A stretch of DNA of 38,431 nucleotides, taken from IMG/VR virus record IMGVR_UViG_3300025646_000128, positions 1 through 38,431 of that record. One strand, given 5' to 3'. The position numbers were made by a program, and so were the translations under genes. The notes below the pieces were generated by a model. It saw only the letters and a list, made by a program, of their open reading frames with translations. It ran no database searches and was not told where the DNA came from. This document shows positions 6,474-35,988 of the stretch, piece by piece. The stretch comes from a virus. Each line of letters opens with the position of its first letter. Within the stretch, counting starts at the first letter, position 1.

Positions 6474-7115
6474 ATGGCATATACACGTGGTACTAATGCT
6501 AACATCATTGTTGGTGCAGCTGCCCTCTTCACATACGAAGCAGGTGAGCTAGCTGACGGTGACCTACCAGCATACGTAGCTGCGACATCTTACAAGGACA
6601 CCCTTTCTGATGACGCTGACTTCCGTAATGTTGGTTACACCATGAACGGTCTGGAACTTGCTTTCCAGCCTGACTTTGGTGAGGTACAGGTAGACCAGAT
6701 TCTCGACGTGGCTAAGCTTTACAAGCAGGGTATGCAGGTTAACCTGAACACTGCTTTTGCTGAGGCTACGCTAGAGAACCTACTTTTCGCAATCGCTGGT
6801 AGCTCTGATGACCTGTCTGCTTTGACAGGAACTGGAATTGGATCAAACTCTCAGGAGCTTGTTCTAAACTCTGGTGACATCGGTGAGTGCCCAGTTGAGC
6901 GTGGTCTAGTTGCTGTCGGTCCAGGTACAGGTGACTGTGACCCAACCGAGCAAATTGAGCGTATCTACGTTGCATATCGTGCACTCTCTATTGAGAATGT
7001 TACAGTATCTGCAAAGCGTGACGAGCCTTCGATGTTCGAAGTTTCGTTCCGCCTACTGCCAGCTGATTCAGGTTCCTACGGTAAGATCGTAGACCGTGCA
7101 ATCCCAGCTGCATAA
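6474..7115 (+). CDS. Major tail protein (tail tube)
   Basis: The 213-residue protein follows the terminator gene and precedes the tail assembly chaperones, as expected for the tube subunit. It starts with GTNANIIVGAAALFTYE. It contains VAKLYKQGMQVNLNTAFAEATLENLLFAIAG, a segment seen in tube proteins of related phages, and ends with a strand-rich part (MFEVSFRLLPADSGSYGKIVDR). Its codon use is rich in C-ended codons like that of the capsid gene, indicating high expression. It should form stacked hexameric rings around the tape measure. An efficient terminator follows. Confidence 0.85.
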   Translation: MAYTRGTNANIIVGAAALFTYEAGELADGDLPAYVAATSYKDTLSDDADFRNVGYTMNGLELAFQPDFGEVQVDQILDVAKLYKQGMQVNLNTAFAEATLENLLFAIAGSSDDLSALTGTGIGSNSQELVLNSGDIGECPVERGLVAVGPGTGDCDPTEQIERIYVAYRALSIENVTVSAKRDEPSMFEVSFRLLPADSGSYGKIVDRAIPAA

Positions 7116-7133: not shown

Positions 7134-7175
7134 CCCCTGGCGTTGCTTCGAAAGGAGCCGTGCCAGGGGTTTTTC
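7134..7175 (+). terminator. Intrinsic terminator after tail tube gene
   Basis: CCCCTGGC (7134-7141) pairs with GCCAGGGG (7162-7169). The stem extends inward through G-U pairs and GCTT/GAGC-type pairing to a C-GAAA-G tetraloop at 7149-7154. It is followed directly by TTTTTCTTT. This is the strongest terminator in the window and would limit transcription from the tube gene into the chaperone genes. Confidence 0.9.
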
Positions 7176-7177
7176 TT

Positions 7178-7186
7178 TGATATAAT
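7178..7186 (+). promoter_or_regulatory. Extended -10 promoter giving a leaderless chaperone mRNA
   Basis: TGATATAAT lies directly after the terminator T-run. The box ends 6 bases before ATG 7193, so the predicted transcript start falls on the A of the start codon. There is no Shine-Dalgarno between them. This supports leaderless translation of the long chaperone. Confidence 0.65.
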
Positions 7187-7192
7187 AAATAC

Positions 7193-7876
7193 ATGCCAAC
7201 TACAGTATATAAATCAGGAACTGTCACTTTACTTGACGATACTGAACTCTACATTACTCCATTAAAGATTAAATATCTTAGAGAATTTATGGAGGCATTT
7301 AAGTTGGTTCAAGAATCAAAAAATAATGATGAATCAATGACAACCTTAGTGGAATGTGTAAGAATTGCAATGAAGCAATTTCGTCCAGAAATTAAAACAG
7401 CTGAGCAAGTGGAAGACATTGTGGATTTAAATACAATATACGAGATATTAAAATACTGTGCGGGGATTAATTTAAAAAATGATGATGACAATAAAGAGCA
7501 GATTAGTGATCAGGCAAAGAAGAATTCGCCAAGCTGGGACGAGCTAGATATAGTAGCCCTAGAGTCTGAGGTATTTCTTTTGGGCATTTGGAAAGATTAT
7601 GACGAGCTAGAATCATCTCTTTCTATGGAAGAACTCGTTGTTACCCTTAATGCTAAAAGAGATGCTGACTATCAAGACAAAAAGTTTACAGCAGCTATGC
7701 AAGGGGTAGATCTAGATAAGCAGTCTGGTAAAAATAATGAGTGGGAAGAAATGAAAGCAAGAGTATTTAGTAAGGGGCAAGCACAAGACGGTAGCGATAT
7801 TCTAGCCTATCAGGGGGTAAATGCACAAAAGGCAGGGTTCGGCATTGGGATGGGCCTAGGCTACGAAAGACTATAA
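7193..7876 (+). CDS. Tail assembly chaperone, long form (G-T type as one frame)
   Basis: The 227-residue protein has an N-terminal G-type domain (residues 1-95) and a T-type domain (about 110-190). The T-type part shows SWDELDIVALESEVFLLGIW and DYDELESSLSMEELVV followed by LNAKRDADYQDKKF, typical of the downstream half made by frameshifting in other phages. Here both halves are one continuous frame. Such chaperones bind the tape measure and guide tube polymerisation. Residues 1-95 are paralogous to the next gene (roughly 40% identical by eye, for example IECVxIAMKQFxPE). The gene begins without a ribosome site directly behind a promoter. A slippery heptamer lies exactly at the domain border (see 7471-7482). 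The C-terminal 40 residues are Gly/Gln-rich. Confidence 0.8.
   Translation: MPTTVYKSGTVTLLDDTELYITPLKIKYLREFMEAFKLVQESKNNDESMTTLVECVRIAMKQFRPEIKTAEQVEDIVDLNTIYEILKYCAGINLKNDDDNKEQISDQAKKNSPSWDELDIVALESEVFLLGIWKDYDELESSLSMEELVVTLNAKRDADYQDKKFTAAMQGVDLDKQSGKNNEWEEMKARVFSKGQAQDGSDILAYQGVNAQKAGFGIGMGLGYERL
7471..7482 (+). other. Slippery heptamer T TTA AAA with immediate -1 stop
   Basis: T TTA AAA (7471-7477) is in the correct phase of the long chaperone frame (codons 94 and 95 are TTA and AAA). A -1 shift adds one Lys codon and then meets TGA at 7480-7482. The shifted product would be 96 residues, that is the G-domain alone. The site lies exactly at the G/T domain border, where phages usually shift to extend the protein. 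Use of the site is inference. Confidence 0.45.
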
Positions 7877-7892
7877 AAAAATAAGCCTTTTA

Positions 7893-7901
7893 TGCTATAA
7901 T
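7893..7901 (+). promoter_or_regulatory. Extended -10 promoter before short chaperone
   Basis: TGCTATAAT lies 17 bases after the stop of the long chaperone and 37 bases before the next ATG (7939), which has a strong AGGAGG site (7930-7935). No convincing -35 box is seen. The short chaperone thus has its own promoter and a better ribosome site than the long one. Confidence 0.6.
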
Positions 7902-7938
7902 ATACTAACCACGAGCCTATTTATTCACAGGAGGAAAA

Positions 7939-8262
7939 ATGACCGTTAAGGTAAATGAGGGAACTACAATTGCCCTAATTGATGGAACACAGATTGCAGT
8001 AAGGCCACTAAAGATTTCTCTTCTTAGAGATTTTATGAAGAAGTTTGAAGAAATCGCAAAGGTTGCAGATAATAACGATAAGTCAATGGACGTTCTTATT
8101 GAGTGCGTTCAAATTGCAATGAAACAATTTAATCCAGAGCTTGCAGCCGATGCAAAGGCACTGGAGGATAACCTAGACTTGCCAACAGTTTATAAGATTG
8201 TTGAGGAGGCATCAGGACTTCAGCTATCTGAAACGTCTATCGCCAGCAAGCTTGGCAAGTAA
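7939..8262 (+). CDS. Tail assembly chaperone, short form (G type)
   Basis: The 107-residue protein matches the first ~95 residues of the upstream long chaperone along its whole length (shared PLKI, LRDFM/LREFM, ECVxIAMKQFxPE and LDLPTVYKI/VDLNTIYEI segments). It then stops without any T-type domain. It is therefore the G-only partner that other phages make from the same gene when no frameshift occurs. Strong ribosome site AGGAGG, 3 bases before an ATG at the normal spacing, and its own -10 box imply higher synthesis than the long form. The tape measure gene follows 23 bases later. Confidence 0.75.
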   Translation: MTVKVNEGTTIALIDGTQIAVRPLKISLLRDFMKKFEEIAKVADNNDKSMDVLIECVQIAMKQFNPELAADAKALEDNLDLPTVYKIVEEASGLQLSETSIASKLGK

Positions 8263-8285: not shown

Positions 8286-11200
8286 ATGGCTGATGCTGAA
8301 GCCAGAATAGGTATAAATGTCGATGTATCAAATGCATTGGCAGGCCTTCGCCTCCTTCAAAAAGAAATGGCCAATTTCAATTTGGCCATGGCCCAGGGCA
8401 CGGCAGCACAACGTGCCCAGGCCCAAACTATACAAAAAGATTTAATAAATAATATAAATGCTAGCGGAAAATTTGCAGCTAGCATTAAGACTGTTTCTAC
8501 TTCTGCAGAATCTTTTACAAATGCCCTAGAAAAAAATAAACTTTCTATGGGGCAATACTTTAAGTATGCTGCAGGAACTTCTAAAACTTTTTCTAGAGTT
8601 TTTAGTAACGAGTTTAACACCATTGAAAAGGTGGCCCGTGAAAGAGTAAAAACTCTACAAACCCAGTACGTCAAGCTTGGCCGTGATGCAAACGGTGCAA
8701 TGAAAGCAATTGCCATTAGGCCACTTGCTCTTGACATGGATAACCTTGCAACTAAGACAGCAATAGCAGCACAAAAACAGGCCATCCTCAATCAGCTTCT
8801 TAGACAGGGTTCTACAAATCTTCTAAATTTTGGTAAGAATACCCAGTGGGCTGGTCGCCAGCTTATGGTCGGTTTCACCATTCCGCTAACTTTGTTTGGT
8901 GCCCAGGCTGCCAGATCATTTATGCAAATTGAGCAACAGGCAATTAAGTTTAGAAGAGTATACGGTGATACATTTACTGCAACAGCAGAAACCGACAAGA
9001 TGATTGAGCAAGTTAAAGAGCTTGCTTCTGAGTTTGCAAAATATGGTGTTCAAGTTGAAAAGACTATGGAAATGGCTGCTGATGCAGCTGCCATGGGTAA
9101 AATGGGTGCAGACCTACTTGCACAAATTAATGAGTCAACAAAGCTAGCGGTGCTTGGTGGGGTAGAGCAAGAACAAGCTTTGCAAACTACGATAGCACTT
9201 ACGAATGCGTTTGGCATCGAAGCAGATAAACTAGCAAGTAAAATTGATTTTTTGAATGCTGTTGAAAACCAAACTGTTACAGCAATTGAAGATTTGACTA
9301 TTGCAATACCAAAAGCTGGCCCTGTTATTCAAGAGCTGGGGGGTAGCGTAGAAGATCTTGCATTCTTCCTAACAGCAATGAAGGAAGGCGGCATTAACGC
9401 ATCAGAGGGTGCTAACGCACTCAAGTCTGGTCTTGCTAGGATGATTAATCCTACAAGAGAGGCTACAGAATTCCTAGCACAGTTTAATATTAATGTTAAT
9501 AAAATTGTTGAAGGAAATGCAGGAAACATTAAAAATGCAGTTCTTGAGCTTGCCACAGCACTAGATACACTAGACCCACTAAACAAAGCACGAGCCATCG
9601 AAACTCTTTTCGGGCGGTTTCAGTTTGCACGTCTTTCTACACTATTTGATAATGTAATTAAGCAAGGTACTCAGGCAGAAAGAGTTCTTAAGCTTTCTGC
9701 TTCTTCGGCTGCAGAGCTAAGAGTTTTGACCCAACGAGAGCTAAAGCGAGTAGAAGACTCGCCAATGTTTAAGTTTCAAAAAGCAGTTGAAGAGCTTCAG
9801 GTTTCTCTTGCACCACTTGGAGAGGCATTTATCAAAGCAGTTACGCCACTTATTAAGTTTGGAACAGATCTTCTTAATAATTTTAACAAGTTAGATGATG
9901 GCACTAAAAACTTTATAGTGACACTTGGAGGGCTTCTTGGTGTTGTCGGACCAGTAGCATTGATGACCTTTGGTTTGCTAGCTAATGGTGTAGCAAACTT
10001 AATTAAGTTGTTCGTAACAATGGGCGGTATTTTTCAAAAGAGCAAGCTAGGAACAACAGATCTTGCAACATCAACACAGTATTTGACACAAGAGCAGCTA
10101 GAAGCAGATGCAGTAGCTGCATCACTTAATAGTAAGCACATTGCTCTAACAAACACCTTTACTTCTGAGGCATCAGCAATTAACCAACTAGTTATTGCAT
10201 ACAATCGTGCACTTACAGCACAGGGAAGACTAGTTGGGGTAACTCCAGCCAAGGGCCAGGTGCTAAACCCAGCTCTAAAACTTGCTGATGGAATCCAGAG
10301 TGTCCCTGGGCGACGTGGTGCGGGAGATGTCGTACCAGCGATGCTGTCTCCTGGAGAGGCGGTTATTCCAGCTAAGCAATCAAAGAAGTACGCTGGATTT
10401 ATTCAGGGAATCCTGGGCGATAACATTCCAGGATTTAAATTCGGAAAGCTAGGCCTAGCAGCAAAATTTGGAAATCGCTTTAAGGGCACTGTTGTCGAAA
10501 CGATGTTTAGAAGGCTTACTGGTCAAAATCTTGATAGGATAAGATTTAATCAGACATCTTTTGAGAATAGGCTAAAAGAAAATGCCATAAGGAGACCTGG
10601 AAAAGATGTAGCTGTAAGGATGTTCTCTGACGACCTAGTCGGTGCACTTGGCAGGGGCGAAAAAAGATATAGAAATATTTTTGAGGTTGGCGGTAAGTCA
10701 AGAGGAAGTCTTGATGAAGCAACTGGACAAAGGGCTATAGCAGAAAAACAGCTGTTCAAGCTTGATGAATCGGCCAGACCAAGCCTGCGTCCAGCATATG
10801 GATACGTCGTAAAAAGAGACTTGCCACAAATTAAGTATGGCAAAACCTCTATTGCAGACAGGCTGTTTGGTGCAGACAGTACTTTTGGTGGAATGAATCC
10901 AAAATACCTGGCTAGAGATAATGTTGCCCAATCAATGTCTGTAATGAATCAAAAGACCTATCGCTATGGAGATATCGCTATGATTCTTAAGCGTAGGGCA
11001 CTTCGTGGAAGAACCACTATTACTCAGGGTGATAGCATCAATGCTGCTCTGGGCAAATATGCCACACCAGCAAAATTTGGAACTTTAAGTAGGGCAAGAC
11101 TTAAAGCTGCAAAAACAACTGGAAAGGGGCAGAGCGATTTTGTAGAAGCCCAAATCCTTGGAGGGTTTAGCTTTAAGGATATCAAGAGAATTGTCTCAAC

Positions 11201-14200
11201 TGAGCCACAAACGATAATCGGGCTTCAGACAGCATTAAAGGCTGCAGGAATTCGTGGAGTTCGTGTCGGCATGCCTAAGCTGACTATGATGCAAAAAATT
11301 AGAGCAGCCCTTAGGATGGGCCCTGGCTCTCCAACAAAGCTTCCCAGAATGCAATCAGAGGGTCCATATAAAGATAGGTACTTTAACGATCCAACAATTC
11401 TAAGTAGCGGTAGAAAGCTGTGGCTCAACAAGGGCATAGTATCTGTCCCTGGACCACGTGGTGCAGGAGATGTTGTTCCAGCAATGCTATCTCCTGGAGA
11501 AGCGGTTATCCCAACCAAATTTGCAGACAAGTATGCCCCACTTATTAACGGCATGGTATCGGGAAGTATCCCAGGATTTATGGCAGGAAGAGCTGGAGAA
11601 GGCAATAGTAGGATGTGGTTTGATCCTAAGAATACTCTGCAGGCATCACACATGAGAGAAGAAACTAGCCTTTTGTCACAGGCCGAAGCTAGAAGAATGC
11701 TTCGTAGAGAAGTTGACAAAGCAATTAGGATGGGAATTCTTAGCAGGAGTGATATTGACACAAAGGCAATATCTGGCCTGACTGGACAAAATAAGCTATA
11801 TTCACAACAGCTAGCATTAATGCAATCTGGAACTAATCAGGCTACTACAACTAGGGGCGGAGGAGCAGTATCAAAATCAGATTTCGGATCATTTGTTAGA
11901 AACAATCCAGGAATGATGGGTGCTGGAACGGCAGCAAACCTAGAGTTCTTAAAGGGTACGGCTCAAGGCGGTAGATATTCGGCAGTAACTGATAAAACGT
12001 TGACCAAATACCTAAAAGACTTTGACAAGAGCATAACTCAGCAACTAAAGCTTTTGAATAAGAAGACTCTTACTGAAAGAGATCAGTATAGAATTTTTAA
12101 GAAAGCCAGAGTTGATGCTGAAAGACAAATTTCTAACATTAGTCAGAGAAGTGCTATTAAGCTAGTAAATAGATTTGGTGACTTAAGGCTTAGCCCAGGA
12201 ACTCCAGGAAAGCTTGCCCAAGGAGCCTCAGACCAAGGCAGAACTATGAGGCCTAGTCCAGTTAAGAATTATGGAAATGCACAGAAGAGAACGCAAGGAA
12301 TTCGTTCCAGGCTTGCCACCTTGATGGGAAGGCCAGATACATTTTTGTCACAAGCAAACATGATGCTTCCTCAAGCAATGAAAGCCCAAATTCAACCACT
12401 TCTTGGTGCCCTACCTCCTGAAGCTCGTGCAGCAGCCGAAAGAGATTTGATAGCTGCAAAGGGTGATCCCAAAAAGCTTCAAGCGGTAGCCAATAAGATT
12501 ATCAAGGGAGACTATGGAAAGCTTGCTGCCACATCTCAAAAACAAACTTCAGGAAAAGCAGCTGCAACAAAGCCAGCCAAACCTTCAACAAAGGCTACAA
12601 ATAAGCGAGCACCCGCAAGACCTAAGCCAGTATCTAATGTTCTTCTAAGGGAAAATCTTGGAAATGGCGTAACTAGAACTGTATCTCAATCAGAAAATGG
12701 AAGAATTGCTACAACATTCCGTCATAACAATAGGTTTGTTTCTGAGGCCAAGGCCCTAGAGCTGTCTCAGCTTAAGCCTCAAAAAACAAATGGAATAAGA
12801 AAATTAATTTCAGGAAATGGAAATAGGCCATCTCTAGGAACGGCCATGGGCGTTGCTGGCGGTGCTGGAATGACAGCTGGAATGATGATGTCCTTTAGTG
12901 GCGAAGAAGGAATGCAAAGTCTAGGACAAAATGTTCTAATGGGTTCGTTGCTTCTTAGTATGCTGCCAATGCTTAAAAATCCTGCTGTTGCAGTTGTTGC
13001 AGGTCTAGCAGCTGTTGCAGGAAGTATGTGGTATTTAAATAAGAGACTTGAAGATGCTGCCAAGTCTGGGGTAGACGCTGCTAGTGCGATGTCTATGACA
13101 AACAAAAAACTAGAAGAGCTAGCTCAGTTTACAGGCTCTGCAACTGCATCATCAATTTTGGACGAAGAGAGGGCCACTCAGCTTGCTGGTGAGCCAGGTA
13201 AGAAGAGACAGTTTGGACAAGAATTCCTAGGGTCAGAGCTCGGCCAGTCAATGATGGCAGATGTCAAGTCTCAAATTGAGAGCGGAGCTTCCAGCCTTGA
13301 GGTTGGGCAAAATATTGCAAACCAGCTTGCATATGCAGTTCTTCAGGGTGCATTAACAAAGGCCGAAGCTGGTAGCATAGCAGCAGCACTAAGTACTGAA
13401 CTAAAAGACTTTACAATAACTGCTACAGTAAATGGACAACTTAATAGGTTGATGGGACCAAATGGAGAAAACCTGCTTACCGATCCATTAACTATTGCCT
13501 TAAATATTCAGCAAAACTCTGTAGACCAGCAATCTCAGGCATTTGAAAATGCTTTCTCAACAGCTACCGAAAATTCCTTAGACACATTTAGAAATAATGT
13601 CTTGTCTGTATCTGCTGCTAGTGCGGTTGCAATAGCAGGTTCAGCCATAACTGCTGGCCTAATTGCGGGTGGGGTAACTGCACCACTAGCACTGGCCTCT
13701 GCAGCATTAACCGCCATAGCTGCAACGCAAACCCAAACGCTCGTAGATGCTGGACTAGAAGGCTGGCAGCGAGAAGAGAATGCTAAGCTAATGGGAGTAG
13801 CCGTACAGCTTGGTGCAGAACAGTTAGCACAGAACCAGGGAATTCTTGATGCAACTGAACAAAGATATGCTTCTCAAATAGCTGATCTACAAGCTCAAAA
13901 GGAAGCTGCCAAAACAGATGAAGAACGCCTTGCACTAGAGCAACAGATTGCTGATAAGCAAGCTGAAAGAGATGCAGGCCTTGCCCAGATTAAGCAAAAA
14001 AATGCCGATATCTATAATAGCCTAGTTCAGCAAGCTGAGGCCCTAAAAGATGTCGATCCAGAAGGATTTAATAATGCAATTGGACTTGCAATCGATGCTC
14101 AATACGCAAATTCTTCTGATGCACTTAAGGCAGCAGCAGAACTGGCAAAAGAGTCCCTATCTAGCATGGAAGACGGTGAGTTTAAGGTAGGTCTTCAGAT

Positions 14201-17200
14201 TGCCCTAGCTGCTGGAGAGCTAGATCCAGTTACTGTTACTAATCTAGTTAATGCAGCTAAAGACAATGCTGACATTGAAGCAAAATACAAACTTTTAGTA
14301 GATAGCGAGGGAACAGCAGAAGCAAATCAGCTACTGCAGATACTTGCAAAAGCGGGTGTTAAAACTGCAAACTACTCTGTAATTATTGATTACATTATGA
14401 ATAATGGAACAGAGTTTGACAATGATGTCGAAGCTTTGGCACAAATTGCAAACATGGAACAAGAGTACGGTTTAAGGATTGACCTAGATGCTTCTGGATC
14501 CCAAAAGATTATTGATTCAGTATCACAATTTATTGAAGATACAGATGAGATGCCAGAAATGGTAACACTTGATGTTTTAACTAACTATCTTGCCCAATAT
14601 CCAAATATGGATCCAGGAACAGTTCAAACAATTAAGGGCCTAATTGATAACTGGGATGTTCTTTCAAATGGAAATAATGAAGTTAACTACCAAGTCTTGG
14701 TTGACTTTGCAATTGGAAAGGCAGACCCAGCAGCCATTCTGGGATTCTATCTGGCACAAAATCCAGACAAGGCACCAAAGTTTACGGGATCCCTAGATGC
14801 GTTTGAAAGGCAAAAGAGCTCACTACTTGACGATGCTATCGCATGGTTTATGGGTCTGCTAGGAAATAACCCAATTAATACTGACGTAGAGGAAGTGGTT
14901 ACAGGAACTGGAACCAGAAGCACAATTCTAGACTCCATTCTTAATAAGCTAAAGCAGGTTAAAGATGCAGCTATAGATGCAACTAGCGGGCTTGCTGGTT
15001 TAAAGAACCTTCTTGGCGACGGACAAGATCTTCAAGGATTCTCTGGATTTAATCAACAGCTTGTCTTTAAGGGCTACGGCTCTGAATTTATTGACTTTTT
15101 AAATGGTCTAGAAACAGCTGATCGTGAAAAGTTCTTAACAATTACTGAAGACGGACTAATTCGTGTCACCAAAGCTGGAAAAGCACTAAACAGTGCATTT
15201 GCAGAGGCGGCATTGGGAGATTTCCAGTTCTCGCTTACTCAGGGCGTAGCAGACATGAATATGACAATTCGTGCCATGAATACCCTAACTGCTGCAGGAC
15301 TAACAAACGCAGAAGCATATGAAATTGCCACAGATGCTGCCCTTGCATATGCAATTGTAACTAGAACAAATGATGCAGATCTTGACAATCTAATTGATTC
15401 ATTTAGAAGATTTAAAAAGCTAGCAGCTGAAGCAGAAAACATGACCCCAGAAGGATTCCTTTCTAACCTGGGCACAGGTATGGGAAAGATTGATGAATTC
15501 TTTGCTAATCGTAAAAACCTTGTAAACCTAGACTTTGAGCTGGGCATTAATCAAAGTGGATTAAACCCAGACAGCATCAACATGAGTGCAATTCAAGACC
15601 TAATAAACGAGGCAGAGTTTGACATCTTCAATTGGGAATACGAAATAGATGATCTTGAGTATTTGATTGATGGTATTGCTAAGCAAGAAGATGCAATTAA
15701 TGAGGCGTACGATAAACGAGTAGAGGCTTTAGAAAAGGTAAACGAGCTTAATCAGGATGCCATTGCGGGAGAAAAGGCTAAGCTGACTATTGCAGATGCT
15801 TTAAGTCAGGGTGACATTGCAGCAGCAGCTAAGGCAGCTATTGATGAGCGTGAACGTCAGGCAGAACTTCAGTTTGAAAAACAAAAGGCGGCACTTGAGG
15901 CTTCTAGAGAAAGAGCACTTTCTGGAGTCACTGCCACAAATGGCCAAACAAGGGTACAAATTGAAGAAAAGATTCTCGAACTTAGAGACCTAATTGCTCA
16001 AAAGGAAGAAGATGTTTTAGAGAAGCAGGAAAAGCAGCTTCTAGAGGCAGAGCGTGCAAGAGACGTGGCACTAGAAGCAATCGGTGCAGAGGGCTATCTC
16101 GGCAAGACAGAAGATCAGTGGAGGGCAATCGAAGCTGCCACTAGAGATGCTGTAACTCAAACAACAGCCTGGAAAGATGAAATTATAGCAGCCCTAAAGC
16201 TCCTTGGCGGAATGTTTGACGCAGAAGGAAACTTTATAGGATTCGGTTCACTAAAATTCCCAACCTCTGGTGAAATGCTTGGAAACGACGGCAGTGGTGG
16301 AACAACTCCAAGCCCAACTCCTACAAACACAGGCCCTGGTCCATCCGATCCTCCTCGTAATAATGATGACGGCAGTAGTTCCGCTCCAAGAGTTCTTATC
16401 GCTGACACTACCCCTGCAGAGCTTGAAAAGATCAACATTCCAAAGACAAAAGAGGAGCTAAATAAGAATATTCCAAAGGGCAAGGGTATTGCAGAGGCTA
16501 CTGCCGCTGAAGGAAGTGAAGGAATTCCGACACCGACACCTCCTGCCCCTGCAAACAATCTAACCCCTAGACAAAGAGAGCTGCTGAATAGAACGGGCCG
16601 TCCGATATTGATGGATGGCAAAACTTACTATGTTCCGCCAAAGGGCGGTGCCTTTGCTCTAGCAGACGGGGGCAGCATTTCTGGCCCAGGAACTGGCACA
16701 TCTGACTCTATTCCTGCAATGCTTTCTGACGGTGAATATGTAGTCAGGGCATCTAGTGTGGGCAAGCTCGGTGTAGACTTCCTAAACTTTATCAACAAAA
16801 ATGGACATATACCTGGATTTGCCTTCGGTGGCAAGGTAATGCTAGACAAGGGAAATTCATTTGCAAGCAAGCCAACAAGTGTAAGCTCAGCCCTAGCTGC
16901 AGATAAGAAACGGGCATTCTCATTTAAGTCGCCAACTAAGCCTGAGCCAAAACCAGGAGACCCGTCGTTTGCTGCATATCGCCCCACCAGCCCAGGAGAT
17001 GCAATTGGTAAGGGCATGCAGCTTGCAATGGACAACATTCAAAGATTATTCTTTGGTCAGGCATCGCTTAATGCTAAATATGGCATTAGCAGTGACACTT
17101 CTGACACAATAGATTCAATAGCTGCTATAGCACTAAACAGCCTGCCAGCTCCAGCACTAAAGGGAATTACTAACATAAGAAGCCTTGCACCAGCTATAGA

Positions 17201-18491
17201 TAATATGATTGCAAAATCAATTATTCAAAATACACTAAATAAGCCAAGGGTCGCAGTTGGAATGACACCAAGTGGCGTTGAAGGAGCAATTAAAGACAGA
17301 GCTTTTAGAACAATAAGCGACCTAGAAGATGTTGGACAGTTTGTAACTAGGCCATCTGGATATAATGCCACAAGAAGACAAGTAGAAAACGACCTACTGG
17401 GCATTCCACTTAATACAGCATCATCTCAAAGACCAATATATGGAACTATAACATCCGCTTTTGGCACCAGACTTCCCTATAGTTTAGTACAAAAAATGGG
17501 AGGGCAAACTGGCAATGCTTTGAGATTGTTCGATCCAAGATTTAATAAAGTTACAAACCAATATATGTATAACCTTGGAAGCAACGCCAGCGATTTTGTA
17601 CCGCTAGCACTAGCAAGGACTGGAAGGGGTGCTCAAGGAACCTACACACTAGGAGACACATTTAGGCTCTCTCCTGGGGCCAACATCTTTAGGCTAGGCA
17701 ATAAGACAGACTCAAGGAACGCAACACAGGCAATACTTAGAGAATTTAAATCACCAAGTAGTGAGCTAAGAAATGTATCACCATACTCATTGCCATATCT
17801 TGAGGCTCAGATTAACAATGGTAAAAATCTTTTTAACCTAGTTAAAAAGTTTGAGGTTCCGATAAGGCAAAACAATAATGAGTGGGCAGGCCTAACCCAA
17901 AGCACTGCAAGGTCAGAAGCTCAAAGGCTACAAAACTTTTTACAGCAAAGTGGCGTATCCAATGTAAGGACTGGAACATTTAGAGACATAGCACCAGCTT
18001 GGCAATGGCAACTAAAGCAGATGAAAACCGATATGTTGAGGTCTCCAGCAATAAGAGGAGCAAAAAATCTACAATATGAGCTATCAAGAACTGGATCAAG
18101 GATAAAAGATCAGGTTCTTCAAAGATTAATGCCACAAAGGCAGGCTCCAGGATACAACCCACTCCGTGGAGTTGATTGGGAAAATACGCTTGCAAGCGGT
18201 GGGCTTGTTAAGCCAAAGTATCTAAGCTCTGGTGGCTTTGCAATTGGAACAGACACTGTGCCCGCAATGCTTACTCCAGGAGAGTTCGTAATGAGTAGAT
18301 ATGCAGTGCAGGCACATGGAGTCGACAAACTAAAGGCCATGAATTCTGGTGCAAATTCTTCTGAGTCAGTGTATAATTATAACTTGAGCTTAAATGTTAA
18401 GTCTGAAGCAAACCCCGATGAAATTGCTCGCACAGTAATGACACAGATTAAGCGGGTAGACTCTCAAAGGTTAAGGAGTAATAGGTTCTAA
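8286..18491 (+). CDS. Tape measure protein
   Basis: At 3401 residues this is by far the largest gene. Start choice: GGAGGT (8272-8277) lies 8 bases before ATG 8286; an ATG at 8282 in another frame stops at once. Residues ~230-450 resemble the TP901-type tape measure core (PhageMin_Tail), with EMAADAAAMGKMGADLL and AIPKAGPVIQELGG. Hydrophobic, membrane-like stretches lie near 540-585, 1515-1580 and 1775-1820. Coiled coils lie near 1860-1925 and 2450-2640, with a Pro/Thr-rich linker near 2670-2705. Four PAML(S/T)PGE repeats occur (residues 672, 1053, 2797, 3314 on), and two ART-like segments lie between repeats 1-2 and 3-4. The protein sets tail length, is assembled with the two upstream chaperones, and is normally ejected with DNA. 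At ~0.15 nm per residue the tail would approach 0.5 micrometre, less if the inserts fold compactly. Confidence 0.95.
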   Translation: MADAEARIGINVDVSNALAGLRLLQKEMANFNLAMAQGTAAQRAQAQTIQKDLINNINASGKFAASIKTVSTSAESFTNALEKNKLSMGQYFKYAAGTSKTFSRVFSNEFNTIEKVARERVKTLQTQYVKLGRDANGAMKAIAIRPLALDMDNLATKTAIAAQKQAILNQLLRQGSTNLLNFGKNTQWAGRQLMVGFTIPLTLFGAQAARSFMQIEQQAIKFRRVYGDTFTATAETDKMIEQVKELASEFAKYGVQVEKTMEMAADAAAMGKMGADLLAQINESTKLAVLGGVEQEQALQTTIALTNAFGIEADKLASKIDFLNAVENQTVTAIEDLTIAIPKAGPVIQELGGSVEDLAFFLTAMKEGGINASEGANALKSGLARMINPTREATEFLAQFNINVNKIVEGNAGNIKNAVLELATALDTLDPLNKARAIETLFGRFQFARLSTLFDNVIKQGTQAERVLKLSASSAAELRVLTQRELKRVEDSPMFKFQKAVEELQVSLAPLGEAFIKAVTPLIKFGTDLLNNFNKLDDGTKNFIVTLGGLLGVVGPVALMTFGLLANGVANLIKLFVTMGGIFQKSKLGTTDLATSTQYLTQEQLEADAVAASLNSKHIALTNTFTSEASAINQLVIAYNRALTAQGRLVGVTPAKGQVLNPALKLADGIQSVPGRRGAGDVVPAMLSPGEAVIPAKQSKKYAGFIQGILGDNIPGFKFGKLGLAAKFGNRFKGTVVETMFRRLTGQNLDRIRFNQTSFENRLKENAIRRPGKDVAVRMFSDDLVGALGRGEKRYRNIFEVGGKSRGSLDEATGQRAIAEKQLFKLDESARPSLRPAYGYVVKRDLPQIKYGKTSIADRLFGADSTFGGMNPKYLARDNVAQSMSVMNQKTYRYGDIAMILKRRALRGRTTITQGDSINAALGKYATPAKFGTLSRARLKAAKTTGKGQSDFVEAQILGGFSFKDIKRIVSTEPQTIIGLQTALKAAGIRGVRVGMPKLTMMQKIRAALRMGPGSPTKLPRMQSEGPYKDRYFNDPTILSSGRKLWLNKGIVSVPGPRGAGDVVPAMLSPGEAVIPTKFADKYAPLINGMVSGSIPGFMAGRAGEGNSRMWFDPKNTLQASHMREETSLLSQAEARRMLRREVDKAIRMGILSRSDIDTKAISGLTGQNKLYSQQLALMQSGTNQATTTRGGGAVSKSDFGSFVRNNPGMMGAGTAANLEFLKGTAQGGRYSAVTDKTLTKYLKDFDKSITQQLKLLNKKTLTERDQYRIFKKARVDAERQISNISQRSAIKLVNRFGDLRLSPGTPGKLAQGASDQGRTMRPSPVKNYGNAQKRTQGIRSRLATLMGRPDTFLSQANMMLPQAMKAQIQPLLGALPPEARAAAERDLIAAKGDPKKLQAVANKIIKGDYGKLAATSQKQTSGKAAATKPAKPSTKATNKRAPARPKPVSNVLLRENLGNGVTRTVSQSENGRIATTFRHNNRFVSEAKALELSQLKPQKTNGIRKLISGNGNRPSLGTAMGVAGGAGMTAGMMMSFSGEEGMQSLGQNVLMGSLLLSMLPMLKNPAVAVVAGLAAVAGSMWYLNKRLEDAAKSGVDAASAMSMTNKKLEELAQFTGSATASSILDEERATQLAGEPGKKRQFGQEFLGSELGQSMMADVKSQIESGASSLEVGQNIANQLAYAVLQGALTKAEAGSIAAALSTELKDFTITATVNGQLNRLMGPNGENLLTDPLTIALNIQQNSVDQQSQAFENAFSTATENSLDTFRNNVLSVSAASAVAIAGSAITAGLIAGGVTAPLALASAALTAIAATQTQTLVDAGLEGWQREENAKLMGVAVQLGAEQLAQNQGILDATEQRYASQIADLQAQKEAAKTDEERLALEQQIADKQAERDAGLAQIKQKNADIYNSLVQQAEALKDVDPEGFNNAIGLAIDAQYANSSDALKAAAELAKESLSSMEDGEFKVGLQIALAAGELDPVTVTNLVNAAKDNADIEAKYKLLVDSEGTAEANQLLQILAKAGVKTANYSVIIDYIMNNGTEFDNDVEALAQIANMEQEYGLRIDLDASGSQKIIDSVSQFIEDTDEMPEMVTLDVLTNYLAQYPNMDPGTVQTIKGLIDNWDVLSNGNNEVNYQVLVDFAIGKADPAAILGFYLAQNPDKAPKFTGSLDAFERQKSSLLDDAIAWFMGLLGNNPINTDVEEVVTGTGTRSTILDSILNKLKQVKDAAIDATSGLAGLKNLLGDGQDLQGFSGFNQQLVFKGYGSEFIDFLNGLETADREKFLTITEDGLIRVTKAGKALNSAFAEAALGDFQFSLTQGVADMNMTIRAMNTLTAAGLTNAEAYEIATDAALAYAIVTRTNDADLDNLIDSFRRFKKLAAEAENMTPEGFLSNLGTGMGKIDEFFANRKNLVNLDFELGINQSGLNPDSINMSAIQDLINEAEFDIFNWEYEIDDLEYLIDGIAKQEDAINEAYDKRVEALEKVNELNQDAIAGEKAKLTIADALSQGDIAAAAKAAIDERERQAELQFEKQKAALEASRERALSGVTATNGQTRVQIEEKILELRDLIAQKEEDVLEKQEKQLLEAERARDVALEAIGAEGYLGKTEDQWRAIEAATRDAVTQTTAWKDEIIAALKLLGGMFDAEGNFIGFGSLKFPTSGEMLGNDGSGGTTPSPTPTNTGPGPSDPPRNNDDGSSSAPRVLIADTTPAELEKINIPKTKEELNKNIPKGKGIAEATAAEGSEGIPTPTPPAPANNLTPRQRELLNRTGRPILMDGKTYYVPPKGGAFALADGGSISGPGTGTSDSIPAMLSDGEYVVRASSVGKLGVDFLNFINKNGHIPGFAFGGKVMLDKGNSFASKPTSVSSALAADKKRAFSFKSPTKPEPKPGDPSFAAYRPTSPGDAIGKGMQLAMDNIQRLFFGQASLNAKYGISSDTSDTIDSIAAIALNSLPAPALKGITNIRSLAPAIDNMIAKSIIQNTLNKPRVAVGMTPSGVEGAIKDRAFRTISDLEDVGQFVTRPSGYNATRRQVENDLLGIPLNTASSQRPIYGTITSAFGTRLPYSLVQKMGGQTGNALRLFDPRFNKVTNQYMYNLGSNASDFVPLALARTGRGAQGTYTLGDTFRLSPGANIFRLGNKTDSRNATQAILREFKSPSSELRNVSPYSLPYLEAQINNGKNLFNLVKKFEVPIRQNNNEWAGLTQSTARSEAQRLQNFLQQSGVSNVRTGTFRDIAPAWQWQLKQMKTDMLRSPAIRGAKNLQYELSRTGSRIKDQVLQRLMPQRQAPGYNPLRGVDWENTLASGGLVKPKYLSSGGFAIGTDTVPAMLTPGEFVMSRYAVQAHGVDKLKAMNSGANSSESVYNYNLSLNVKSEANPDEIARTVMTQIKRVDSQRLRSNRF
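10299..10448 (+). repeat. Tape measure PAMLSPGE repeat 1
   Basis: This codes for residues 672-721, with GAGDVVPAMLSPGEAVIP followed by a helix and IPGFKFG. It is about 75% identical in protein to repeat 2 over the first 25 residues, and the DNA is also clearly related. The motif recurs in tape measure and other phage proteins and its role is unknown. Confidence 0.8.
10650..11270 (+). other. ART-like segment A inside tape measure protein
   Basis: Residues ~790-995 contain, in order, RPAYG (R835), the run RTTITQGDS (D916, S917) and DFVEAQILGG (E954). This R / T-x-T-x-GDS / EAQ order resembles the R-S-E layout of ADP-ribosyltransferase-like folds and of the DUF3626 family. It sits between PAMLSPGE repeats 1 and 2. 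Fold and activity are inferred from short motifs only. Confidence 0.4.
11442..11591 (+). repeat. Tape measure PAMLSPGE repeat 2
   Basis: Residues 1053-1102 have the same order as repeat 1: GAGDVVPAMLSPGEAVIP, then a KYAPLINGM helix and SIPGFMAG. It closes the segment that starts with repeat 1. Confidence 0.8.
16674..16836 (+). repeat. Tape measure PAMLSDGE repeat 3
   Basis: Residues 2797-2850 are a more diverged copy: GTSDSIPAMLSDGEYVV, then a helix (VGKLGVDFLNFINKNG) and HIPGFAFGGK. It opens the second insert and follows the Pro/Thr-rich linker. Confidence 0.75.
17340..17880 (+). other. ART-like segment B inside tape measure protein
   Basis: Residues ~3020-3200 repeat the motif order of segment A: RPIYG (R3049), GTYTLGDT (D3124, T3125) and PYLEAQINNG (E3173). 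Spacings are similar (75 and 49 residues against 81 and 38 in A). It lies between PAML repeats 3 and 4, the same relative position. The GDS serine of segment A is Thr here, so this copy may be inactive or variant. Confidence 0.35.
18225..18350 (+). repeat. Tape measure PAMLTPGE repeat 4
   Basis: Residues 3314-3355: SGGFAIGTDTVPAMLTPGE, then a short FVMSRYAVQAHG and a helix. It closes the second insert, about 47 residues before the C-terminus. Confidence 0.75.
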
Positions 18492-27039: not shown

Positions 27040-27232
27040 AAAGAGACGATCATGGGCCAAGTCTATTACGTGGAGGGTGCTTGCTGTTATTAGCACCTTT
27101 GGCGTAGGGTATGCAATGACATCAAGTCTGACCTTTGCAACTTCTCTCACCATAGTTTCTAACACAATCAATTTTGTGTTATACTACATTCATGAGAGAG
27201 TTTGGCTAAAAGTAAAGTGGGGTAGGGTATGA
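27029..27232 (+). CDS. DUF2061-like small membrane protein
   Basis: The 67-residue protein starts at GTG 27029, overlapping the previous gene, and its TGA overlaps the helicase ATG. It contains KSITWRVLAVISTFGVGYAM, then SLTFATSLTIVSNTINFVLYYIHERVW, the pattern of the DUF2061 (PF09834) family. It should form two transmembrane helices with positively charged ends (KIKKRRSW; LKVKWGR). The family is known from bacterial genomes but its function is not established. Its place between replication genes, translationally coupled to the helicase, is unusual. Confidence 0.8.
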   Translation: MKIKKRRSWAKSITWRVLAVISTFGVGYAMTSSLTFATSLTIVSNTINFVLYYIHERVWLKVKWGRV

Positions 27233-28449
27233 GTAGCACAGAATCTAAGTTAATATCTGCAGTCTTAAATGACAAGCAAGTGCACGTTATGCTACAAGCT
27301 AACGCAGATAATTTAATGGCAACCCACGGCGATGTCTGGGAATTTATTAGAAAATATTTTGACAACAATGGCACAGTTCCGCCAACCTCTCTGGTGCTTG
27401 AAAAGTTTAGAGACTTTGAGGTTATAGAAAATACTGGTTCTACCAAGTATCACCTTGATGAGCTACAGGCAGAATACCTAAACTCTAGCCTTAAGTCTAT
27501 CCTTATGAGTGCTGCCTCAGAAGTCCAGGTAGGAGAAGGTGCCAAGGTTCTGGAAACCTTAATTACCCAAACTTCAGAGCTTAAGAAAAACACTGCTGTT
27601 ATTAGGGATATTGATGTCACAGATCTTGAATCTGCCGTTGCCTATTATCAGGAGCAGCAAAGACTAGCTGAAACTGGCATAACTGGAATTAAGACAGGCC
27701 TACCAGGATTTGATAATTACCTGCCAGCAGGCATTCAGCCAGGCCAGCTAGGAGTTTTTCTTGCATACCCAGGCATTGGAAAGTCTTGGCTATCTCTATA
27801 TTTTGCAGTGCAGGCCTGGAAGCAAGGCAAGTCGCCACTAGTAATTAGCCTTGAAATGAGCGAGACAGAGGTTCGTAATCGTGTCTTTACTATTATGGGT
27901 GAAGGCCTATGGTCACACAGAAAGCTAAGCTCTGGGCAAGTAGATGTAGATGATTTGAAAAAGTGGCATGCCAGTAAGCTTGCTGGCAAGCCAGAGTTCC
28001 ACATTATTTCAAACGATACTGGAGGAGATATTACCCCGTCTGTATTGAGGGGAAAGATTGATCAATACAGCCCAGATTTCGTAATTGTTGACTACCTACA
28101 GCTGATGTCTCCAAACCAGAAGTCCGATAACGAGACGGTGCGTATGAAGAACCTATCTCGTGAGCTCAAGCTTATGGCTATTTCTGAAGAGGTGCCAATC
28201 ATGGCCATCTCATCAGCAACACCAGATGATGTTACCAAGCTAGATACCGTGCCAACCCTTGGCCAAACCGCATGGTCTAGGCAGATTGCCTACGATGCTG
28301 ACTGGGTAATGGCCCTGGGACGTGCACCAAACTCAGACATTATAGAGTGTGTTTTTAGGAAAAACCGCAATGGCTTTATGGGAGAGTTCTTGGTCCAGGT
28401 AGATTTTGATAAAGGATGGTATAAGTACAAGGATTATGAAGATAATTAG
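27229..28449 (+). CDS. DnaB-like replicative helicase
   Basis: The 406-residue protein overlaps the DUF2061 gene by ATGA. It has a helical N-terminal region (1-130) with weak similarity to DnaB N-terminal and linker parts. A RecA-type ATPase core follows: Walker A AYPGIGKS (179-186, Lys185), the DnaB-like SLEMSETEVRNRV stretch (207-219) and Walker B with FVIVDYLQLM (Asp288). A later SSATPDDVTK loop and an RKNRNGFMGE segment suit motif H4 and the arginine-finger region. It would unwind the phage DNA at the fork and work with the primase two genes later. No dedicated loader is recognised. Confidence 0.9.
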   Translation: MSSTESKLISAVLNDKQVHVMLQANADNLMATHGDVWEFIRKYFDNNGTVPPTSLVLEKFRDFEVIENTGSTKYHLDELQAEYLNSSLKSILMSAASEVQVGEGAKVLETLITQTSELKKNTAVIRDIDVTDLESAVAYYQEQQRLAETGITGIKTGLPGFDNYLPAGIQPGQLGVFLAYPGIGKSWLSLYFAVQAWKQGKSPLVISLEMSETEVRNRVFTIMGEGLWSHRKLSSGQVDVDDLKKWHASKLAGKPEFHIISNDTGGDITPSVLRGKIDQYSPDFVIVDYLQLMSPNQKSDNETVRMKNLSRELKLMAISEEVPIMAISSATPDDVTKLDTVPTLGQTAWSRQIAYDADWVMALGRAPNSDIIECVFRKNRNGFMGEFLVQVDFDKGWYKYKDYEDN

Positions 28450-28450
28450 T

Positions 28451-28456
28451 TATAAT
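28451..28456 (+). promoter_or_regulatory. -10 box giving a probable leaderless transcript
   Basis: TATAAT lies directly after the helicase stop and ends 7 bases before ATG 28464, which has no ribosome site. The distance matches a start codon at or next to the transcript 5' end, as at 804 and 7193. No TG extension or -35 box is seen. Confidence 0.5.
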
Positions 28457-28463
28457 TTACTGT

Positions 28464-28808
28464 ATGAACACCATACATCACAAGGCAATCAAGAGATTTT
28501 CTCTAGACGGTATTATTCAGGACGATTCCAAAATTGGAAGGCTCCACGAAGAATACAAGAGAATTCTTGGCATAGAGATGAAGCTATCGGGTTATGTGCC
28601 GAGATTAGACATTGACCCAGACTTTACTATCAGCTATAATAGTGAGTCTAATAGCTTTAGCTTTGAGCTTAGTGTTTATGGAACTTATGTGGGAAAGAAG
28701 AGAGCAGAATGGATAATAGGAATAGACGGAACGGACGTGATTTCTTCACAGACCGACAAGTCGAACGAGTCCTTACCGCTTCGGGTATCGAGATATCCCA
28801 AGAGCTAG
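28464..28808 (+). CDS. Hypothetical protein overlapping the primase gene
   Basis: The 114-residue protein has a helical N-terminus (HHKAIKRFSLDGIIQDDSKI) and a beta-rich centre (GYVPRLDIDPDFTISYNSESN, FSFELSVYGTYVGKKRAEWII). Function is unknown. The last 100 bases (28709-28808) overlap the primase gene in a different frame. The overlap codes for plausible residues in both frames at the start (EWIIGIDGTDVI against the primase N-terminus), but the last 20 residues look like random read-through. Confidence 0.55.
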   Translation: MNTIHHKAIKRFSLDGIIQDDSKIGRLHEEYKRILGIEMKLSGYVPRLDIDPDFTISYNSESNSFSFELSVYGTYVGKKRAEWIIGIDGTDVISSQTDKSNESLPLRVSRYPKS

Positions 28809-29653
28809 ATGCTGACTATTTAATTTTCTGCCCATTCCACAGCAATCACAGAACACCAGCAGCTGAAGTAAATAAAGAAACGGGTATGCTATTTTGCTTT
28901 TCCTGTCACGTTACTTCAACACTTATAGAGCTTGTTATGCACGTGTCGGGTAGGTCATACTTTGAAGCAGCCAGACTTATTAAAAGTAAAGAGTCAAAAG
29001 ATAGCCTAGTAGAACAGCTTAATAAAAAGCTTGTTGAAGAGCCAGAGTATAAGGCATTTGACCAAGAAATGGTTAGCAGGCTTGCGTCTCAGGCTTCTGC
29101 TTCAGAAACTGCTATAGATTATTTTGCAGGCCGTAAAATTACTAAAGAGTCTATGTCTAAATTTAAGCTAGGATTCTCAGAAAAGCAACAAATGGTAACT
29201 GTTCCAGTGCATGCACCTGACGGCACCCTGGTAGGCTTTGTTGGCAGGTCTATTGAGGGCAAGGTATTTAAGAATACTCCAGGCCTACCAAAAGCTAAAA
29301 TACTTTTTAATTTGCACAGGATCAAGTCAGAAGATAGTGTCTACATTGTAGAGTCATCGTTTGATGCTATTCGTCTAGATCAATGTGGCATACCAGCAGT
29401 TGCTACTCTGGGGGCAAACGTGTCGAACAAGCAAATAGAGCTGCTGAAAAAATATTTTAATAGTGTTATCGTAGTTGCAGACAATGATGATGCGGGCGGT
29501 AACATGAAAAATAAGATCCTTGAATCTTTACGTTCAAGGGTATCTGTGGTACAATTGGACCAGCGATACAAAGACATCGGAGACATGAGCGATGAAGATA
29601 TTAAAAATCTTAAACCATCATTTGACAACTCCATAATGTCTATGCTAAAATAA
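28709..29653 (+). CDS. DnaG-like primase (zinc finger plus Toprim)
   Basis: The 314-residue protein starts at ATG 28709 inside the preceding gene. It has a CHC2-type zinc site: C41 and H44 in the FCPFH stretch and C63 and C66 in FCFSCH, which binds template DNA. A core follows with GLPKAKILFNLHRI and a Toprim domain (VYIVESSFDAIRL with the conserved Glu; VVADNDDAGG with the metal-binding Asp residues). It makes RNA primers for lagging strand synthesis. It is shorter than cellular DnaG because it lacks the C-terminal helicase-binding domain. It is encoded next to the helicase and SSB-like genes. Confidence 0.9.
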   Translation: MDNRNRRNGRDFFTDRQVERVLTASGIEISQELDADYLIFCPFHSNHRTPAAEVNKETGMLFCFSCHVTSTLIELVMHVSGRSYFEAARLIKSKESKDSLVEQLNKKLVEEPEYKAFDQEMVSRLASQASASETAIDYFAGRKITKESMSKFKLGFSEKQQMVTVPVHAPDGTLVGFVGRSIEGKVFKNTPGLPKAKILFNLHRIKSEDSVYIVESSFDAIRLDQCGIPAVATLGANVSNKQIELLKKYFNSVIVVADNDDAGGNMKNKILESLRSRVSVVQLDQRYKDIGDMSDEDIKNLKPSFDNSIMSMLK

Positions 29654-29677
29654 AAAACCAAAAAACAGGAGAAAAAA

Positions 29678-30337
29678 ATGAGTGTAATTAAAGGGCTAAA
29701 GAATATCAATGCACTACTTGATAAGCCAAGATATGATGAAAACAAGCCACGAGTTCGTTGGCTAAAGCTTGCAGACGGTCAGTCTGTCAAGATTCGCTTT
29801 ATTGAAGAGCTAGACGAAGATAGTGCTAGCTATGCTGACAATCGAGGTCTCGCACTTGTAGTAAAGGAGCACTCGAACCCAAAGGACTACAAGCGTAAGG
29901 CTGTAGATACAATGGATACCGATGGCCGTGACTTTGCTGAGGAGATGTACCGCAAGGACCCAAAGGCAAACTCTGGCTGGAAGTCAAAGCTTCGCTTCTA
30001 CTGCAACGTTCTTGTTGATGACGGCCTTGAAGATCCCTACGTTGCCATCTGGTCAATGGGTGTAAGCAAGCAGTCTGTATTCAATACAATTCGTGAGTAT
30101 GCTCTAGATACTGGAAGCATTTCTAATGTTACATGGAAGCTAAAGCGAAATGGCCAGGGAACTGAGACCAACTATACTCTAATTCCAACAGCTCCAGACA
30201 AGGAGCCGTTCACATGGGATGGAATTGAGCCATTCCCATTGGAGTCTGCACTAAACAAGATTCCATACGCAGAGCAAGAGGCATTCTACCTCGGCTTTGA
30301 TGCTCCATCAGTCACTTCTTCAAATCTTGACTGGTAG
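29678..30337 (+). CDS. Single-stranded DNA binding protein (gp32-like)
   Basis: The 219-residue protein starts at ATG 29678 after ACAGGAG. The body, with VRWLKLADGQSVKIRFIEEL at the front and KLRFYCNVLVDDGLEDPYVAIW in the middle, looks like the OB-fold core of phage ssDNA-binding proteins of the gp32-like type. VWxx-like aromatic and basic patches such as SNPKDYKRK fit DNA contact. It ends in a short polar tail, SVTSSNLDW, less acidic than in gp32. It lies between primase and polymerase genes, the usual SSB position. Codon use is C-rich, consistent with abundant expression. Confidence 0.65.
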   Translation: MSVIKGLKNINALLDKPRYDENKPRVRWLKLADGQSVKIRFIEELDEDSASYADNRGLALVVKEHSNPKDYKRKAVDTMDTDGRDFAEEMYRKDPKANSGWKSKLRFYCNVLVDDGLEDPYVAIWSMGVSKQSVFNTIREYALDTGSISNVTWKLKRNGQGTETNYTLIPTAPDKEPFTWDGIEPFPLESALNKIPYAEQEAFYLGFDAPSVTSSNLDW

Positions 30338-30345
30338 GAGATAGG

Positions 30346-33300: not shown

Positions 33301-33621
33301 CGCATTGTGCATTATGTCCCTGCAGACGAGATAAGCAAGGCAGATTCGGCATTGGTTCGATATCTAAACTACAAGAGCTTGCCGTATAAAGAAGATGAGC
33401 TTTTTGTTGTATCTTTTAAGTCACGCACAACAAAGGCTGGGAAGAAAATGGCATCAATGACTGTGGCAGATGTTGCCAGGGAGCTACACTCAATAACAGT
33501 ATTTCCCACAGCATTTCCAAAGGCATATATGAAAATTAAAGAGGGCAAGGCATACAACCTAAGCCTAGGTAAAACAAAAGACGGAACGGTCATATTGGAG
33601 GATGTAATTGACAACAATTGA
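30346..33621 (+). CDS. dnaE: DNA polymerase III alpha subunit (family C, DnaE-like)
   Basis: The 1091-residue protein starts at TTG 30346, 5 bases after TAGGAG. The PHP domain is at the N-terminus (LHVHTHYSLFDG, TDHGSLSGH and PDCHHSDTS), with the metal ligands apparently intact. The polymerase core has PDIDTDIQD (Asp420, Asp422) and KIDALGLKTL (Asp567), matching the three catalytic Asp residues of DnaE. A GPGRGSAAGSLLCY segment marks the palm. An OB-fold-like region (FILMGMVKSIKRGKGW) lies near residue 935. It is the phage's replicative polymerase. An intact PHP site could give it intrinsic 3'-5' proofreading, and a separate DEDDy exonuclease is encoded 1.4 kb downstream. Confidence 0.95.
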   Translation: MSYNGLHVHTHYSLFDGIATPEEYLTRAQELGMKSLAITDHGSLSGHREFYRIAKEKGIKPILGIEGYITTDRKDQRAPDVRDGLLDLVYNHIIVIAKNQTGLENLNKLNEIAWTEGFFKKPRFDYEVLEKYSEGLIVLSGCLSGALAKAIEAEELAEAKRIIEWHKRVFGEDYYIEVMPHNPPEVNKQLLELADKYGVTPIVTPDCHHSDTSQKEIQELKLILNSYANKVEKSATYEKSLKYDNLMDKLNYLYGERQISFANFDIHLLSDEEMHSAMKAQGIDREDMYLATHEVSDKIEDYGIKDHLDLLPVQYQNPDAELRELAMAGLEKRGVLSDEYVARLDEELEVIKDKNFGPYFLVVRSMIAWAKKEGIIVGPGRGSAAGSLLCYALEITDIDPIKHGLLFFRFINPERNDFPDIDTDIQDSRRDEVKDYLVRQYKHVASIATFLQFKDKGVVRDIARVLHIPLTDVNKVMKVVDTWDDYCTSKQAAWFREKYPEIEKYGDQLRGRIRGTGIHAAGVVTSKHPIFRYAPMETRTAPGTKERIPVVGVDMEEAERIGLIKIDALGLKTLSVLRDTLDIIEQRHYKKINLLSIDMEDPKVYQMLSDGFTKGVFQCEATPYTNLLVKMGVKNFAELAASNALVRPGAMNTIGKDYILRKQGKQNIGYHHQVMKEFTSETYGCILYQEQVMQACVNLGGMTMAEADKVRKIIGKKKDAKEFDQFREKFVEGASRYLTPNFARDLWSDFEAHAGYSFNKSHAVAYSTLSYWTAWLKTYYPLEFIYSILKNEKDKDARTEYLIEAKRMGISIKLPHVNDSDADFKIEGKGIRFGLTGIKYISDNVASKFLAKRPFKSYKELEEFTMQKGSGVNTRSLQALRVTGAATFEDNPRNDDEVRTNLYEFLNLPEFNVSVPPHYYAFINDVEEFEEKGSFILMGMVKSIKRGKGWSRVEVLDKTGSIGIFDEEQTEIEPGRTYLLLATDNRIVHYVPADEISKADSALVRYLNYKSLPYKEDELFVVSFKSRTTKAGKKMASMTVADVARELHSITVFPTAFPKAYMKIKEGKAYNLSLGKTKDGTVILEDVIDNN

Positions 33622-34618: not shown

Positions 34619-34799
34619 GTATGAGGTTCATCCAGGAAAATTTCCTTGCCACACGTGCAAGGAAGTGGTAAAATCATTAAGGCACTATATAGAAGCAAAA
34701 GAGTTAACGTGGGTGTGCAGTCAAAAGCACCTTACCAAAGTTAGCTTGGATGTAAAGAAAAAGAAAAAGAAAGATTATGAGCGAGAAAGCGGAAAGTAA
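34608..34799 (+). CDS. Small zinc-ribbon protein
   Basis: The 63-residue protein overlaps the recombinase stop by 11 bases (ATG 34608). The Cys/His pattern is CHTC (residues 14-17) and a second pair CSQKH (37-41), with aromatic residues between, suggesting one zinc site. A Lys-rich tail (VKKKKKKDYERE) follows. Small phage zinc ribbons of this type are common in replication clusters and may bind nucleic acid. The function is unknown. It overlaps the nuclease gene that follows. Confidence 0.6.
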   Translation: MSNKYEVHPGKFPCHTCKEVVKSLRHYIEAKELTWVCSQKHLTKVSLDVKKKKKKDYERESGK

Positions 34800-35673: not shown

Positions 35674-35676
35674 ATA

Positions 35677-35985: not shown

Positions 35986-35988
35986 GAC

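Follow-up and report, generated by a model that had tools for sequence, protein, structure and literature searches.

Most long-tailed bacteriophages produce two sizes of tail assembly chaperone from one gene through ribosomal slippage. Few recoding events in phages are as well conserved as this frameshift, and it is usually held to be necessary for the ratio of the short form (G) to the long form (G-T). In phage lambda, many G copies coat the tape measure protein, and G-T, which is about 30 times rarer, brings the tube protein (PMC5009743). The Streptomyces phages of the Stanwilliamsviridae (Bmoc, Comrade, and Annadreamy) possess one G only, the gene of which has a promoter, a leader, and a Shine-Dalgarno (SD)-like site, and their G and T frames, which are offset by -1, share a stretch that contains C_CCA_AAT or C_CCG_GAA. 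Some T4-like phages are described as carrying one short and one fused long chaperone gene with no frameshifting (PMC10274946, in which the authors of PRFect cite Vladimirov, Gautam and Davidson 2022), and Microbacterium cluster EA phages as expressing two chaperone ORFs separately with no evident frameshift (PMC7302621).

We analyzed a 38,431-base IMG/VR virus record (the window, i.e., the whole stretch of DNA), in which two neighboring plus-strand genes are flanked by the major tail protein gene on one side and by a tape measure gene of 3401 codons on the other (Table 1). The initial annotation had proposed a long and a short chaperone gene here, and both were found where it had placed them. 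The pair shares with lambda gpG/gpGT and other siphophage chaperones (PMC5009743) the G/G-T plan, the gene position, and a common G domain, but it has no slippery site and is made up of two genes with separate promoters and start regions. With the Stanwilliamsviridae phages it shares homologous G and T and the gene order. As far as the description in PMC10274946 goes, the pair also fits the duplicated plan of T4-like phages, that is, a short G-only gene plus a longer, in-frame fused gene instead of a frameshift, the two being paralogous in G. T4-like phages, however, are myophages, and neither frameshifting sister phages nor a leaderless and a leadered start appear in that description. The cluster EA phages likewise lack a frameshift, but the source describes two separate ORFs rather than a fused long gene and a paralogous short one.

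Table 1. Genes and sequence elements of the chaperone locus in the window
Feature	Position	Strand	Evidence or remark
Major tail protein gene, Ig-domain type	6474..7115	+	phrog_2175, E 2.1e-30; directly 5' of the chaperone genes
Predicted intrinsic terminator, parting the major tail protein gene from the chaperone genes	7134..7176	+	Hairpin, then T tract
Predicted extended -10 promoter of the long gene, TGATATAAT	7178..7186	+	Ends 6 nt 5' of ATG 7193
Long chaperone gene, G-T fused in a single frame, 227 aa	7193..7876	+	phrog_10504 and phrog_10474; 286 loci
G domain of the long gene	7193..7474	+	44% identity to the short gene
T_TTA_AAA heptamer, in frame at the G/T junction	7471..7477	+	A -1 slip would lead to TGA at 7480-7482
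T domain of the long gene	7532..7873	+	Alignment with T ORFs of Streptomyces phages, 41-48% identity
Predicted extended -10 promoter of the short gene, TGCTATAAT	7893..7901	+	Leader of ~31 nt
AGGAGG Shine-Dalgarno site of the short gene	7929..7934	+	Strong SD also in 151/172 relatives
Short chaperone gene, G domain only, 107 aa	7939..8262	+	phrog_10504, E 3.5e-19
Tape measure protein gene, 3401 aa, expected chaperone client	8286..18491	+	Position and length

Residues 1 to 100 of the long protein correspond to phrog_10504 and residues 132 to 216 to phrog_10474, and the short protein corresponds over its whole length to phrog_10504, the sole family among its strong PHROGs matches; the E values for this homology are 5.4e-18, 2e-16, and, for the short protein, 3.5e-19. 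Over the first 94 residues of the long protein, an alignment with the short protein shows 44% identity and 70% positives (E = 2e-26). In Streptomyces phages, the counterparts by position of the two flanking genes are annotated as major tail protein and tape measure protein. As with siphophage chaperones in general, the genes follow that for the major tail protein and precede that for the tape measure protein, and the short and long products share a G domain. A Pfam search with both chaperones returned no family at its cutoff and no relevant family among the G relatives, and a PDB sequence search with the chaperones returned nothing relevant. We infer that the two genes encode tail assembly chaperones and that the phage is a long-tailed one, distantly related to the Stanwilliamsviridae.

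By the usual rule of ~0.15 nm of tail per tape measure residue, the very long tape measure protein of the window predicts a tail of ~500 nm. Positions 27229 to 37583 encode a DnaB-like helicase, a DnaG-like primase, a RecA-like protein, and an exonuclease-like protein, which is consistent with the window being part of a larger phage genome. A tRNA and Rfam search of the window gave no match.

Related loci were collected by four scans of IMG/VR and one scan of bacterial genomes and were sorted with G and T profiles. The 332 loci comprised 286 with GT followed by G, as in the window (tandem loci), 38 with G and T in different frames (G-T loci), 6 with GT only, and 2 that were truncated or carried an indel; counted as distinct sequences, there were 199 GT-G pairs and 35 G-T loci. 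The six GT-only loci were dismissed as a third state, all of them ending at most 152 nt from the end of the stored locus, as was one locus (L148) as a G-T-G intermediate, its appearance being due to a one-base indel, whether an error or a mutation, inside the G domain.

In the phage collection, tblastn with the two window chaperones gave matches in 130 (long protein) and 124 phage records, and the former were from 127 Streptomyces phages and 3 Rhodococcus phages, with no other host genus in that collection. The G ORF and the T ORF were separate and in different frames in the Streptomyces phages examined, and all distinct G-T loci inspected showed an offset of -1 with a frame overlap of 25 to 94 nt. 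Within the overlap, most distinct G-T loci have an in-frame C_CCA_AAY or G_GGA_AAC, the place of which is taken by C_CCG_GAA in the others; in Rhodococcus phage Trina, G and T are likewise offset by -1, with an in-frame G_GGA_AAA. The replacement of the C_CCA_AAY of relatives by C_CCG_GAA was seen in Streptomyces phages of the Boydwoodruffvirinae type (L161, L168, L169, L174 to L176, L179, and L181); this heptamer is noncanonical and may be a weaker or a different slip site. Several G-T loci (L189, L196, L198, L210, and L237) are from IMG/VR contigs, as the tandem loci are, and some IMG/VR G-T loci have T domains that score as high as those of tandem loci. Thus, both states occur among close relatives.

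From its matches on environmental contigs and the absence of cultured relatives, we read the tandem clade as a freshwater one. The sole match in the bacterial genome scan was a locus of the frameshift form (L173) on a 110-kb contig, CAINGU010000031.1, in a cyanobacterial metagenome-assembled genome, which may be a viral contig binned with the cyanobacterium. Phages isolated on Planktophila exist (PMC10202952).

In the tape measure tree, which was built from the first 600 residues and was the best resolved of the trees built, all tandem phages fell into one derived clade with support of 100/99 and the frameshift lineages outside it; outward from this clade lay two freshwater frameshift groups, the L173 group, and the Streptomyces phages. 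Since the tandem phages form one derived clade among frameshifting lineages, the original state was most likely frameshifting, which gave way once to duplication. In the G-domain trees (96 columns), the long copies formed one clade (97/95 in one tree) on longer branches than the short copies, the long copy being the faster evolving of the two. The short copies also formed one clade, with support of 86/99 and 99/96 in two trees but 75/96 in a third, and the G genes of freshwater frameshift phages stood beside them. In the T tree and the major tail protein tree, the freshwater frameshift phages fell among tandem phages. AU tests did not reject a single tandem clade in either (p = 0.487 and 0.223, respectively), nor a clade of long plus short copies in the G tree (p = 0.329), and given these tests we did not retain the several switches that the T and major tail protein trees alone would suggest.

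In a different history, the freshwater group would have started out with the tandem arrangement, and its frameshift phages would have arisen by reversion or recombination. This would account for the major tail protein tree, where four freshwater frameshift phages make up a single clade nested among the tandem phages, as well as for the use of G_GGA_AAC by freshwater frameshift phages where the Streptomyces phages and the L173 group use C_CCA_AAY. We consider it unlikely, since the tape measure tree, with its 600 columns, puts the frameshift phages outside the single tandem clade and since the G trees give no supported placement of the frameshift G genes within the short copies. The simplest reading is that the locus of a frameshifting ancestor was duplicated once, and recombination or reversion may have occurred in a few lineages.

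All three domains are under purifying selection, with dN/dS values of 0.12 for the long G, 0.12 for the short G, and 0.08 for T. The two G domains, which the initial annotation had taken to be paralogous, proved to be alike in predicted structure: in AlphaFold2 models, their elements come in one common order, with two strands ahead of helices at approximately residues 26 to 40, 46 to 64, 70 to 78, and 80 to 91, the short-gene model being of low confidence (pLDDT 62.7). In a VIA-align search with the long model, the HK97 tail assembly chaperone 2ob9 ranked first, with a Z of 4.1 over 87 residues (unrelated rows reached up to 3.9) and an alignment spanning model residues 1 to 93; this structural match is no more than suggestive. 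Both models were matched by viral predicted structures bearing the name "tail assembly chaperone", and Foldseek against the PDB gave no match at an E value below 1.

The divergence of the two G domains, at 44% identity, and the separation of the short-copy branch from the long-copy branch might indicate that the short gene has taken a different job, such as a distinct role in the head or tail, rather than serving the long protein as its G partner. This seems improbable to us: the short copy is closest to the G of freshwater frameshift phages, the short gene lies directly 3' of the long gene in all tandem loci and keeps the ancestral style of start signals, and it is the long copy that has evolved faster.

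The frameshift of the lambda G/GT class was absent from the tandem clade, where the long gene is a single open frame with no conserved heptamer. Neither C_CCA_AAY nor G_GGA_AAN was found in the G-T linker of any of 87 representative tandem loci. The window does contain a canonical heptamer, T_TTA_AAA, in frame exactly at the junction and with an immediate -1 stop, so that the long gene could in principle still frameshift in reverse, in the manner of dnaX, a -1 slip yielding a G-like product of ~96 aa and the second gene being extra. TTTAAAA, however, occurs in just 2 of the 87 representatives, and the density of in-frame X_XXY_YYZ heptamers is no higher in the linker (0.0061 per codon) than in the rest of the gene (0.0055 per codon); besides, the linker is A rich, and one such site is to be expected in some members. 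Because the site is not conserved and the linker is not enriched, the T_TTA_AAA is probably fortuitous, and we rejected such a slip as very unlikely. The notion that an assembly or sequencing error fused G and T in this contig, for which a single-base indel would suffice and of which the indel in L148 could be an instance, is refuted by 199 distinct sequence pairs on many contigs with the same arrangement and low dN/dS, and we give it practically no weight.

The replacement of a frameshift by long and short paralogues, as first proposed from the window, is therefore borne out: relatives keep the -1 frameshift, and the tandem phages, a single derived clade, have lost its sites. The tandem pair is confirmed and holds across the whole clade.

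We further compared the start signals of the two genes over distinct upstream sequences, 143 for the long gene and 172 for the short gene. In the window, no SD site precedes ATG 7193, and since the extended -10 element ends 6 nt before this codon, the predicted +1 is the A of the start codon itself. None of the 143 long-gene upstream sequences has a 4-nt SD. An extended -10 is present in 128 of them, 127 of which have it 5 to 9 nt from the start codon (107 at exactly 6 nt), and from this promoter position the long-gene +1 is predicted at or beside the start codon in 127/128 relatives. The short-gene upstream sequences all contain an extended -10 (172/172), and 151 of 172 contain a strong SD. 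The start-signal arrangement of the window is not due to chance, as it recurs in related loci (SD in 0/143 versus 151/172). Thus, the leaderless long gene (a prediction from promoter position) and the short gene with its own promoter and AGGAGG site, both put forward in the initial annotation, hold clade-wide.

The -10 hexamers of the two genes differ, and the split is kept across tandem loci: the long gene mostly has TATACT (71, with TATAAT in 36), and the short gene nearly always has TATAAT (167/172). A hairpin followed by a T tract lies 5' of 141 of the 143 long genes versus none of the 172 short genes; in the window, positions 7128 to 7176 fold with a predicted -28.7 kcal/mol (z -5.9), and the T tract comes next. 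Within 1.94 Mb of tandem loci, long genes accounted for 250 of the cases in which an extended -10 lay 5 to 8 nt ahead of an ORF start, and all other ORFs for 36, and so this close arrangement is nearly specific to the long gene. In most frameshift-type G genes, a terminator and a -10-like box are followed by a leader and a purine-rich SD-like site, an arrangement resembling that of the short gene. Elsewhere in the window, the genes at 804, 28464, and 35677 have a TATAAT-like box ~3 to 10 nt from the start codon and no SD; these may be leaderless too, or their starts may be wrongly placed.

We propose the following explanation, which as a whole we regard as likely. The ancestor would have made G and G-T from one locus via -1 ribosomal frameshifting, and this locus would have been duplicated in the ancestor of a large freshwater phage clade. 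The upstream copy would have become a permanent in-frame G-T gene, retaining the terminator and promoter that follow the major tail protein gene while its leader and SD were lost, so that it would be translated from leaderless mRNA. The downstream copy would have lost T, its promoter, leader, and SD remaining in the style of the ancestral G gene. As in lambda, many G would coat the tape measure protein and few G-T would bring tail tube subunits, at a ratio that the two start regions would set in place of slippage: that of the long gene leaderless and mostly with a TATACT -10, and that of the short gene leadered, with an SD and a TATAAT -10. The terminator would cut the long gene off from transcription of the major tail protein gene, and the short gene could be read both from its own TATAAT promoter and from long-gene transcripts. 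A terminator-isolated TATACT promoter and a leaderless start on the long gene, and a TATAAT promoter, read-through, and a strong SD on the short gene, would all favor G over G-T, which is what lambda requires.

The data are consistent with a ratio set by expression, as was initially suggested; this, like the direction and size of the ratio and the actual transcription starts, is predicted from the DNA. In mycobacteria, leaderless mRNAs are not systematically less well translated, but are similarly translated and less produced (PMC7148126). According to these mycobacterial data, a leaderless start alone does not mean less G-T. We lean, with some reserve, toward a reading in which, in this clade of freshwater phages, subfunctionalized paralogues replace a programmed frameshift and the mode of initiation sets the ratio, a leaderless start giving the rare long form and an SD-led start the abundant short form.

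A short plus a fused long chaperone gene is already known as a plan, from the T4-like precedent as described in PMC10274946. With regard to the open literature searched, what is new is the lineage, the presence of frameshifting phages as its close sisters, the probable single switch, and the contrast between leaderless and SD-led start signals; no description of leaderless chaperone genes was found in that literature. For annotation, a leaderless long gene followed by an SD-led short gene provides a signature of such loci. The tandem phages show how a recoding trick can be lost, with the transition visible among relatives: close relatives use either the frameshift or the duplicated pair, with one inferred switch and a conserved replacement for the control of the ratio. 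This system thus makes it testable why the frameshift persists elsewhere and whether the ratio alone matters.
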